This document shows positions 35,192-51,751 of a stretch of 64,000 nt of DNA, piece by piece (positions within the stretch are counted from its first letter, which is position 1; each line of letters starts with the position of its first letter). This DNA comes from Pandoraea norimbergensis. Its GTDB lineage: Bacteria > Pseudomonadota > Gammaproteobacteria > Burkholderiales > Burkholderiaceae. The DNA lies in contig NZ_CP013480.3 in assembly GCF_001465545.3 (NCBI RefSeq), forward strand, positions 4,464,001 to 4,528,000. The letters are read 5' to 3'. A program made the position numbers and the translations under genes. The notes beneath the pieces are model-generated. The model saw nothing but the letters and a program-made list of their open reading frames with translations, was not told the origin of the DNA and did no database searches.

Positions 35192-35338
35192 ATCCGAGTG
35201 CCGGCAACGACTGGCGTCTGACTGCGCGGTGTCGCAGGGCGGGCGAGAGGCGAGGCTGGCAGATATCGTGCGCGTGTCGGATGCGCGTGCTTAATTCGTC
35301 GCGCGGAGTGCGCGACATTGCAACACAAGAGGCAAGCC

Positions 35339-35752
35339 ATGTACCGCACCATGCTCAAGTCGAAGATCCACCGCGCCACCGTGACGCATTGCGAATTGCA
35401 TTACGAGGGCTCGTGCGCCATCGACGAGAACCTGCTTGAAGCGTCGGGTCTGGTCGAGAATGAGCAGATCGACATCTTCAACGTCAACAACGGCGAGCGT
35501 TTCACGACGTATGCCATTCGTGGCGAGCGCGGCAGCGGCATGATTTCGTTGAACGGCGCGGCGGCCCGTCGCGCGCAGTTGGGCGACATCGTGATCATCG
35601 TGTCGTATGCGCAGGTCGACAACAAGGATGTGCTGGCGGGCTTCAAGCCGCAGCTCGTGTTTGTTGACGAGAAGAACGTGCAGAAGGGCGAGCGCGATCA
35701 CGTGCCGCTGCAAGCGTGGGAAGAAACCCGCGCCTTCGACGCAGCAAAATAA
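35339..35752 (+). CDS. panD: Aspartate 1-decarboxylase proenzyme
   Basis: 137 residues from ATG 35339 ([15 protein letters not shown]). It makes beta-alanine for PanC. The self-processing site Gly24-Ser25 is present in HYEGSCAID, generating the pyruvoyl cofactor. [17 protein letters not shown] and NGAAAR are conserved. The C-terminal extension after about residue 118 is usual in Burkholderiaceae. Confidence 0.97.
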
Positions 35753-35776
35753 ACAAGAAGTAAGAAAGCGCAGCAC

Positions 35777-35810
35777 AAAAAAACCGGCCGAAATGGCCGG
35801 TTTTTTGTTT
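35777..35810. terminator. Bidirectional terminator after panD
   Basis: CCGGCC and GGCCGG around a GAAAT loop are flanked by seven A on the left and TTTTTTGTTT on the right. It ends panD mRNA and could also stop minus-strand transcription from the ParA-type gene. Confidence 0.9.
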
Positions 35811-35852
35811 CAGGAAGAGAAACCCAAAAAGACGCCGACAGCAAGCGCGGTT

Positions 35853-35950
35853 GCAACGGACAGGGGGAGATGAAACGAGTCGACGGCGCGCCCGACCGTT
35901 TGCAGATGCGAAGTGACGCAAATGGTTGGGCGTGTCGGCGACCGACCTTG
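35853..35950 (+). ncRNA. Structured RNA element, copy 1
   Basis: A conserved lead GGACAGGGGGAG-ATGA-ACGAG is followed by a long hairpin, arm 35879-35903 with arm 35918-35942, giving 25 paired positions around a 14-nt loop. Read on the plus strand, four positions are G-U, one (35883 with 35938) is A-G, and the rest are Watson-Crick. The tail GTCGGCGACCGACC resembles that of copy 2. No protein frame or promoter is convincing. Strand is inferred from the G-U pattern. It could also be a DNA repeat element. Confidence 0.45.
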
Positions 35951-35965
35951 AGGGTGGAAGCACGG

Positions 35966-36007
35966 GGCATGGGGAGGTACAGGGGGGTTAAGCGCAGGGG
36001 TGGGTGG
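35966..36007 (+). other. G-run cluster with quadruplex potential
   Basis: Runs of four or more G at 35963-36000 are separated by 3, 7 and 9 nt (GGGG, GGGG, GGGGGG, GGGG), followed by TGGGTGG. This fits a loose G-quadruplex motif on the plus strand. Confidence 0.5.
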
Positions 36008-36108
36008 CGACGGACAGGGGGAGGATGACGAGCCGCCGGTGCGCTGCCCGTTTTCCAAAGCGAATTACGTGGAGCGACGAAAACGGGTAGCGTGCCGGCG
36101 GCCGACCG
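36008..36108 (+). ncRNA. Structured RNA element, copy 2
   Basis: It shares CGGACAGGGGGAGGATGACGAG with copy 1 as an interrupted match and ends GTGCCGGCGGCCGACC. The hairpin arms 36033-36055 and 36079-36101 pair over 23 positions. Twenty are Watson-Crick and three are G-U on the plus strand (they would be C-A mismatches on the minus strand). The inner helix sequence differs from copy 1 while pairing is kept. The 23-nt loop is larger than in copy 1. A G-run (36123-36130) follows. Confidence 0.45.
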
Positions 36109-36154
36109 AGAGACTAGGCGAAGGGGGGGAGAGCGCGAGCGATCCTACCCAGCC

Positions 36155-36778
36155 TTATTCACCTACAAACTTAACGATCCCCTGCCACTGCGGCAGATCG
36201 CGTTCAACACGGCTGGGAGCAACATCCCACAGCGTGAGCCCGTGCGCGGCGAGTTGCACGTAGTTTTGCGTATCGCGCAGCATACCGAGCACCGGCAATC
36301 CGGCTTCGTCGCAATAGCGGGCGAGTTGATCGGCGGCGCGGGTACGGGCATCGACACGCATGCCAACCACGCCGATACGCACGTCGCCCTGACGGACCGC
36401 CTTCTCTTCCTGAAGTTTTTGGAGAAAATCGCGCGTCGCGAGGATATCGAAAATTGACGGTTGCAACGGCACCAGCACATGATTGGCGAGTTTGAGCACC
36501 GTCTCCAACCGTTTGCCGTGCAGACCGGCGGGGGTATCGAGCACCGCGTGCGTCGTGCCCTTGGGCGGACGGGCAACCTCACTATGATCCACGTCCCAAG
36601 TCGCAATGGGCCGTAGCGCCGGCGGACGCAGCCCCAGCCAAGCCCGGGAGGACTGCTGGCGGTCAGTGTCGCCCAGCATCACCGCGTACCCTTGAGCGGC
36701 CAGATAGCCGGCCAGATTCGTTGCCAGCGTGCTCTTGCCCACGCCGCCTTTCGGATTCGCCACCACGATCACCGGCAT
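36155..36778 (-). CDS. Orphan ParA-family ATPase
   Basis: 207 residues from the ATG at 36778, with GGGGAG upstream. The deviant Walker A KGGVGKSTLATNLA (about 10-23) is intact. Asp in GDTDRQQSS and the Walker B-like AVLDTPAG fit the short ParA class (like Soj, MinD or ParC-type cargo positioners) without an N-terminal DNA-binding domain. No ParB gene is adjacent. Many such orphan ATPases position chemoreceptors, enzymes or envelope complexes. The cargo here is unknown. It lies about 100 nt downstream of cobQ on the same strand and may be transcribed with it. Confidence 0.88.
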   Translation of the reverse strand: MPVIVVANPKGGVGKSTLATNLAGYLAAQGYAVMLGDTDRQQSSRAWLGLRPPALRPIATWDVDHSEVARPPKGTTHAVLDTPAGLHGKRLETVLKLANHVLVPLQPSIFDILATRDFLQKLQEEKAVRQGDVRIGVVGMRVDARTRAADQLARYCDEAGLPVLGMLRDTQNYVQLAAHGLTLWDVAPSRVERDLPQWQGIVKFVGE

Positions 36779-36879
36779 TACGCACTCCCCGAGGTCGATT
36801 TTCCGCACATCTTACAACGGCTGCGTGACGGCTTCCGGCGGCAACCGGCGGCATGTCTCAGGCGCTCAGCCCGCCAGCC

Positions 36880-50394: not shown

Positions 50395-50578
50395 GATCTG
50401 GTGTGACTTCCGTAGTTTTCTTTTTTTGCCTTGACCCGTTCCCCCGCGGGTCGTCAGCGCACGGGGAGCGCCGGCGACAGGTCACGGATGCAAGTCGCAT
50501 GGAATCGCATCGACACATGAAAACGACGGCGAGCCGCCGGCGGCAGCGCCGGGCAGCATGACTTTTCCCCACTCGCTT

Positions 50579-50797
50579 GGCCGGTATCCGGGCTGGTCAT
50601 CGTCGCGCCTGACCAGCCTTCCCACAAGCGAAACACTTGCAGTGGCGATTGAGGCGAGGTGCGTTTTCGGAAACCTTTATGGCCGAAATGATGACTTACC
50701 GTTGCGGGGGCAGCACAGGTTGGCCAGCCCGTGTGGGGGCGCGGCTCCCTGTTTCCCGTTTAACTGCGCATGCCGGGGGGCGTGCGCGAGCACCGAA
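50579..50797 (-). promoter_or_regulatory. Cobalamin riboswitch
   Basis: On the minus strand the order is CGGTGC, GGGAAACAGGGAGC, the core GCTGCCCCCGCAACGGTAAG (50695-50714), GCCACTGC, GTGGGAAGGC, then the B12 box GCCCGGATACCGGCC (near 50579-50595). Adenosylcobalamin binding would repress btuB and the downstream genes. The box is about 185 nt before the btuB ATG, leaving room for a terminator or ribosome-site sequestration, which I did not resolve. It explains most of the 507-nt gap. Confidence 0.95.
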
Positions 50798-50868
50798 GCG
50801 CCGCAAGTGTAGGGGTCAATCGGACGAGCGTCAATGCTCGTTCATCGGGCATTGGCCGCCGATTCCGT

Positions 50869-51521: not shown

Positions 51522-51568
51522 GTCAACGTAGAAATTCACAGGCTGTCGCGCGATTCAAAAGGTTAGTT

Positions 51569-51745
51569 TTCCCTGCCTGGTTTGCGAAAGTCATAGATTC
51601 CTTGAACCAATGCTTTTTGCAGGTTGCGGAAGTTTGTAGTGCTGGCGTGAGCGTCACTCTGTCTGATGAACCCAAAGCGCTACTAACCGCGACCACCTTG
51701 AACCTCCCGGTTCAGGATGCCGGCTTAGCGGCTGTGGCGGGGACC
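51569..51745 (+). ncRNA. ssrS: 6S RNA
   Basis: About 177 nt beginning near CCCTGCC and ending near GGCGGGGACC, whose ends pair. The 3' half contains ACCTTGAACCTCCCGGTTCA and GCGGCTGTGGCGGGGA, close to the E. coli 6S 3' region. Position directly after zapA is the conserved site. It binds sigma-70 RNA polymerase holoenzyme and tunes transcription in stationary phase. Exact ends are estimates. Confidence 0.92.
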
Positions 51746-51751
51746 CAATAC

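Follow-up and report, generated by a model that had tools for sequence, protein, structure and literature searches.

The question raised by this locus is what kind of element fills the gap between panD and the ATPase gene running against it in the window, that is, the whole 64,000-nucleotide stretch of Pandoraea norimbergensis DNA that was analysed. An initial annotation had placed a tandem pair of long hairpins downstream of panD, and both were located there, with the following parts and neighbours (window positions):

35318..35752, plus strand: panD, aspartate decarboxylase (PF02261, E 3.9e-50), a neighbour outside the element
35778..35806, no strand assigned: bidirectional intrinsic terminator, a neighbour that separates panD from the unit
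35849..36107, plus strand: the whole two-hairpin unit, about 260 nt, found again as a whole at other places in the genome
35849..35869, plus strand: lead 1, GGTTGCAACGGACAGGGGGAG, a direct repeat
35879..35942, plus strand: hairpin H1, a 25-position helix with a 14-nt loop at 35904-35917
35943..36031, plus strand: linker, G-rich and C-poor (G 0.52, C 0.16), which includes lead 2 at 36003-36023
36032..36102, plus strand: hairpin H2, a 24-position helix with a 23-nt loop at 36056-36078
36060..36075, plus strand: apical core, GCGA (36060-36063) ... GAGC (36072-36075), seen in the subfamilies of alignments A1, A3, and A4, with covarying core pairs
36155..36808, minus strand: ParA/CobQ-type ATPase gene (PF01656, E 9.2e-19), a neighbour that runs against the unit

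The plus-strand folds of H1 and H2 are more stable than all of 200 shuffles (z -4.2 and -5.4, respectively); on the minus strand, H1 gives z -1.0, with 33/200 shuffles equally stable, and H2 gives z -4.2, with 0/200. The annotated count of eight non-Watson–Crick helix positions, seven of them G-U on the plus strand, was reproduced among the 49 positions of both helices, the eighth being A·G as read by eye. Open reading frames cover parts of the hairpin region on both strands, but a protein frame is no explanation for the hairpins, as had been proposed, because the loops are near-identical by letter while the stems change in a paired way. The annotation had also treated the pair as two related elements. 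The relatedness of the leads stands, since the two 21-nt copies begin at 35849 and 36003 (an offset of 154 nt) and are 90% identical, and the hairpins are real; nevertheless, H1 and H2 are better regarded as one two-hairpin unit than as two copies of a single element, because their loops differ in type and an H1-type hairpin precedes an H2-type one in 30/30 units read across the genus.

The element was expected to be multi-copy, and indeed the unit at 35849-36107 recurs at 81% identity (query 40-298) at C1:755350-755609 of the same genome, between aldehyde dehydrogenase and aminotransferase genes, and two further units lie back to back at C1:1631695-1632302. Altogether, four units and seven further relatives were found in the window's genome (G000), and six of the seven have the loop type AGGCGAGUUGAAC..UGAGCAG. 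The aldehyde dehydrogenase locus holds full units in G000, G015, G022, and G019, and in G021 (L049, around 1500) a degenerate H2-like hairpin of 56.9 bits.

Across the genus, a model of H2 alone (R1) gave weak matches in 15/32 Pandoraea genomes at E 0.01, and blastn in 13/32. The weak R1 matches led to subfamilies whose stems share little with H2 and which retain the core in the loop (AAGCGACUUUCARGUGGAGC and kin). The pattern AAGCGANTTTCN{0,4}GTGGAGC occurs in 15/398 genomes of the family, all in one of 25 genera, and its reversed control in 2/398, once each. The covariance model R2, built from four subfamilies in 11 rows, finds 269 matches in 27/32 Pandoraea genomes, with up to 22 per genome; with stricter filters over the family sample, it matches 27/398 genomes, all Pandoraea, and none of the 366 other Burkholderiaceae genomes. 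In named genomes, the exact loop pattern occurs in eight stretches, seven of them in four Pandoraea species and one in Pontibacter, which is probably a chance match.

The homologues bear out the proposal that the inner helix sequence changes while pairing is kept; they are present elsewhere and their helix changes are compensatory. In the H2 alignment A1 (30 units, 25 distinct rows), 99.2% of the cells are paired, with both-sided change in 9/25 pairs, whereas slid controls reach only 37-53%. The R2 alignment A4 (11 rows) has 95.7% of cells paired and both-sided change in 19/23 pairs. For H1, a first alignment, A2, combined two H1 types poorly; its replacement, A5, leaves out five rows of the panD/aldehyde dehydrogenase type, and the 25 units of A5 show 95.2% paired cells and both-sided change in 6/21 pairs. 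Finally, A6, with 17 hairpins from other genera, has 99.0% of cells paired and both-sided change in 33/39 pairs. On any measure, shuffles matched the observed values in 0/500 cases for A1, A4, and A6 and in 0 or 1/500 for A5, controls that are inflated by related sequences and that refer to structures named from the very sequences on which they were counted. Mean ungapped stem identity between loci is about 0.48, and the loops are nearly invariant in the H1 and H2 alignments. The 81% recurrence and the stem covariation across the genus support the hairpins more strongly than the folding scores do.

The core common to the families is 5'-GCGA-N ... N'-GAGC-3', which pairs as G-C, C-G, G·A, A·G, and N-N', the last being C-G, A-U, G-C, or G-U and often unpaired in the H2 subfamily. 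In Pandoraea, the second pair can become U-A, so that GCGAC..GGAGC turns into GUGAC..GGAAC. CsrA-like GGA sites were considered and set aside, as the core of the F7 subfamily has no GGA. A long helix of nearly free sequence would present a small, near-fixed internal or apical core, to whose pairs (G-C, C-G, G·A, A·G, and a covarying one) a protein or a second RNA could bind.

The strand on which this fold is selected can be read from the mismatches. With hairpins detected so that G-U and A-C were penalised alike, 118 unique hairpins hold 246 G-U, 14 A-C, and 97 other mismatches, and G-U exceeds A-C in 106 hairpins, with 12 ties and no reversal. At threshold 8, the counts are 260 G-U and 20 A-C, with 2/125 hairpins reversed, and a lenient setting that includes chance hairpins gives 617 G-U, 301 A-C, and 1340 others, with 40/209 reversed. 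The 17 hairpins of other genera, counted on the structure named here, have 28 G-U and 0 A-C. The selected fold is therefore that of the plus strand, since G-U exceeds A-C 246 to 14 in strand-blind counts. This excess fits RNA best, a folded DNA strand being the alternative, and G-U stands far above A-C and the other single mismatch types, which RNA allows more than DNA. The structured plus-strand element of the initial annotation is consistent with all of this, from the folds to the covariation across the genus.

The same strand information bears on the proposal that the working strand is the reverse complement, a C-rich, G-poor stretch acting as a Rho loading site that ends the mRNA of the flanking gene. 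All 30 linkers are G-rich on the plus strand (G 0.43-0.57, C 0.09-0.22), hence C-rich and G-poor on the minus strand, and in 42/74 antisense cases the element follows a stop codon at a distance of 12-144 nt, and no intrinsic terminator was detected in the interval. However, the pairing of the hairpins is kept for the opposite strand, and a missing intrinsic terminator is common anyway, so that a Rho site seems very improbable. A conserved G-quadruplex was also rejected as an account of the G-rich stretches: tracts of this kind occur in 11/30 linkers against 7.1 expected from composition (the window linker has some), in 10 of 95 5' flanks against 8.9, and in 16 of 95 3' flanks against 8.7, which allows at best for a modest enrichment downstream of the hairpin. 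By eye, a weak shared motif, such as GCGGGATGTGGTGTT or GGGNGGTTTT, follows many hairpins at about 5-50 nt in the 3' flanks of L099-L185.

In a wider search, of 399 genomes of the order, R2 matched G000 and one genome of another family. The latter match (E 4e-4) is chance-like by its E-value but turned out to be a real relative, a long hairpin that carries the same core plus an additional apical stem. A pattern taken from it occurs at 36 places in 6/244 genomes of the order, in 2/117 genera, and its reversed control in two genomes, once each. Three Variovorax replicons (1.2-1.3 Mb) also carry relatives, and a Burkholderia anthina plasmid carries a single one; one of the two further genera may be Variovorax. 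Among the 17 cores of other genera, GAA/UGA occurs ten times, GAG/CGA five times, and GAA/UUC twice, the last in two Variovorax copies in which the core G·A pairs have become Watson–Crick; the Burkholderia plasmid core is GUGAA..UGAAC. Because the core, its C-G to U-A substitution, and the outward pairing are all shared, the Pandoraea and other-genus elements are probably homologous, a judgement that rests on these shared features and to which convergence is the alternative. On the B. anthina plasmid, typed as conjugative, the hairpin (L293 2465-2590) lies in sense between two co-directional catechol meta-cleavage genes. In the L276-L290 hairpins, the core strand includes AAAGGAGG, which presumably resembles a strong Shine–Dalgarno sequence, and some copies have an AUG opposite it; this AUG varies (ACG, AUU) and is thus not conserved.

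No Rfam 15 family reached its gathering score in the element region and 19 related loci, so that the element matches no known family there, and in nine other-genus loci there was no match up to E 0.05, RF02278 included. Elsewhere in the window, a 6S RNA (51567-51747, plus strand) and a cobalamin riboswitch (50562-50813, minus strand) score above gathering. The kinship with the betaproteobacterial toxic small RNAs that had been suggested did not hold up, as RF02278 is absent among the seven weak matches obtained over 35400-36700 up to E 1, all far below gathering scores. RF02278 is likewise multi-copy, several of its small RNAs being described for one Burkholderia genome (PMC4603805), but the present elements do not match its covariance model.

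Several other systems are alike in one respect or another. REP sequences, which are accompanied by RAYT transposases, are intergenic hairpins scattered over the genome, frequently as oppositely oriented pairs; they have a conserved stem sequence and are linked to a rayt gene. The present elements are also dispersed, intergenic, and found in opposite pairs; however, their stems are largely free and covarying, and the hairpins measure about 60-115 nt. Correia repeat enclosed elements of Neisseria are mobile inverted repeats whose conserved core can be bound by RNase III, with cleavage or protection as the outcome (PMC2649163). The same source gives more than 120 copies in a gonococcal genome, against about 12 found in the window's genome, where stems covary. 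NcS25, a small RNA of Burkholderia, Paraburkholderia, and Pandoraea, is reported as conserved into Pandoraea (PMC10117139). By this description, it is set apart by occurring at a single conserved position next to a porin gene and by its presence in Burkholderia, in contrast to R2, which finds 0/366 other Burkholderiaceae genomes. The Burkholderiales-1 motif, put forward in 2010 as a possible structured motif in the same order, is listed as ambiguous as RNA and with no Rfam accession in the table (Weinberg et al. 2010, PMC2864571); it may be part of the present family, the likeness being one of description. In the excerpts of literature on Pandoraea small RNAs and intergenic hairpin repeats, and on Burkholderiales palindromic hairpin repeats, no mention of these elements was found, and the dispersed intergenic hairpin family is apparently undescribed so far.

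One alternative reading is that the element is mobile DNA, REP-like or MITE-like, acting as a folded single strand whose hairpin a transposase or chromosome proteins would recognise. Among the panD loci compared, the unit is present only in G000 and absent from the three closest relatives, G022, G015, and G019, whose panD stretches are 98%, 96%, and 95% identical to that of the window, respectively, and in which the same terminator lies a short way before the end of the ATPase gene. The panD copy was thus gained or lost recently; the simplest account is a gain in the G000 lineage, although a distant source or several losses are possible, because this copy is 19% diverged from the aldehyde dehydrogenase copy. 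Blastn found no phage or plasmid match as a source of the window unit. Two viral-contig matches of a loose loop pattern were discarded, as no flanking arms could be seen by eye, and the two-part other-genus pattern had no match in viral contigs.

Mobility would also suit the homogenisation of arrays within genomes, where, at a given locus, 53% of cores are identical within a genome and 7% across genomes; a comparison of different loci in the same genome gives a weak signal (5.6% against 1.8%, with 3/200 relabelings as high). Moreover, arrays of up to seven hairpins adjoin mnmG/gidA (L099 7029-9006, L166 4944-6617, L173 5300-6916), interspersed with GTTTCACGTGAAAC or GTTCCACGTGAAAC sites and followed by TTATCCACA repeats. 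The former sites are presumably parS-like and the latter presumably DnaA-box-like, an adjacency that would agree with recognition by chromosome proteins, and hairpin arrays beside parS-like sites at mnmG constitute a separate puzzle. However, besides the excess of G-U described above, a link to RAYT transposases was not borne out: PF01797 is present in 32/32 genomes, including five without R2 matches, and no core hairpin lies in the 7-8 kb around the Y1 gene of six genomes (one strand scanned, with a broken extra copy standing for G012). Furthermore, 74/85 element clusters occupy loci common to several genomes. Mobile DNA is, on these grounds, rather unlikely as the explanation. The Y1 transposase-domain gene itself lies at G000:C1:5765358-5765681; 30/32 genomes have one copy, and G012 and G028 have two, one of each two with a stop.

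The genomic placement of the elements was read with a crude codon-based gene caller over 85 clusters holding 148 elements, collected by a strict core search; eight further loci yielded no element in that search and lie outside these clusters, six being at R2 matches with a slightly different core and two not being at R2 matches. None of the 85 Pandoraea clusters overlaps a called gene. By flanking proteins, they fall into 19 groups, and the nine groups common to more than one genome are those that hold 74/85. Neither a tRNA nor an Rfam RNA (up to E 0.1) was found in the large gap of locus group 4. Where both neighbours were called (74 clusters), the gap is convergent in 34 cases, tandem in 40, and divergent in none, against 42, 198, and 82, respectively, among element-free gaps of 100-2000 nt at the same loci; by locus group, 0/18 are divergent, which against an expected quarter would arise by chance about 0.5% of the time. 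Of the pairs of oppositely oriented neighbours lying no more than 1.5 kb apart, 30/32 point outwards, a count that drew on the best 167 of 269 R2 matches and whose two exceptions lie inside one -+-+ row. The same holds for 21/22 pairs inside the 85 clusters and 10/10 in other genera, although the pairs are not independent, many loci being orthologous.

The reading preferred here is a dispersed intergenic element whose folded plus-strand RNA, with a factor bound to the core, would form a boundary against antisense read-through. The element would act in transcripts about to enter the neighbouring gene, chiefly those reading through in convergent gaps, and the hairpin would cause their cleavage, arrest, or decay. 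The covariation in four alignments, the G-U strand bias, the intergenic outward placement, and the 0/74 divergent gaps all agree with it. The next gene end lies at a median of 97 nt where the element is antisense to the gene (74 cases) and 265 nt where it is sense (41 cases). However, gene 3' ends lie opposite the 3' end of the element in 73 cases and gene 5' ends in 28; for the 5' end of the element the counts are 40 and 18, a similar ratio, so that the end-facing counts single out no orientation. In tandem gaps, antisense placement prevails in no more than six locus groups against two, the others being mixed. Also against a boundary are the orthologous other-genus loci L278 and L289, where elements lie between divergent genes, L288, where some 30 nt of an element extend into the end of a called gene, and the sense copy on the Burkholderia plasmid. 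Because the end-facing counts favour no orientation, the boundary reading was lowered somewhat and its rivals slightly raised, and it is held only tentatively, as one that may well prove wrong. A replacement of intrinsic terminators by the element was discarded, being indistinguishable from background: such terminators occur within 300 nt in 31/74 antisense and 7/41 sense cases, a further comparison within 150 nt gives 36/98 and 16/182, and in genes running into an element they are about as frequent as in other genes.

Each unit could also be an independently transcribed small RNA gene, with the core as an RNA-binding-protein site or active loop and with redundant copies retained, as several are in other multi-copy small RNAs. 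The plus-strand covariation, the regular unit length and array spacing, and the conserved loci (74/85 clusters in nine shared groups) speak for such genes, and outward arrays would suit central divergent promoters. Nevertheless, no enrichment of sigma70-type promoters was detected in 95 5' flanks, where the mean best score was 4.9, against 5.3-5.8 in other flanks and 5.45 in shuffled ones, with an approximate promoter model; this lack of signal would in turn suit mobile DNA. On the choice between a small RNA and an mRNA element, both proposed in the initial annotation, neither a promoter signal in these flanks nor a tie between the strand of the element and that of the preceding gene was found. 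Some outward pairs have only 46-65 bp between their hairpins, and the run of T (U in the transcript) that marks an intrinsic terminator is missing after H2 in the window copy, the only one inspected, where CGACCGAGAG follows. A set of small RNA genes is the main rival, held to be about as likely as the boundary and just as tentatively.

The boundary reading can be extended to an order-wide superfamily of RNA boundaries, in which hairpins of free sequence with a fixed tandem-G·A core would be copied, facing outwards, into gaps at gene ends and would recruit a dedicated Burkholderiales factor that stops or destroys antisense transcripts. In this broad form, the proposal is unlikely to be right as a whole. 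The tendency of paired elements to point outwards, together with their avoidance of divergent gaps, offers a testable link to transcription at gene ends.

Covariation this strong, with free stems and a fixed core, is in the authors' judgement unusual for a bacterial interspersed repeat. The combination implies recognition of the core as part of a helix, irrespective of the sequence of that helix. If the element acts at the RNA level, it would reveal a new RNA-binding or processing system in a large bacterial order, with natural variants ready at hand.
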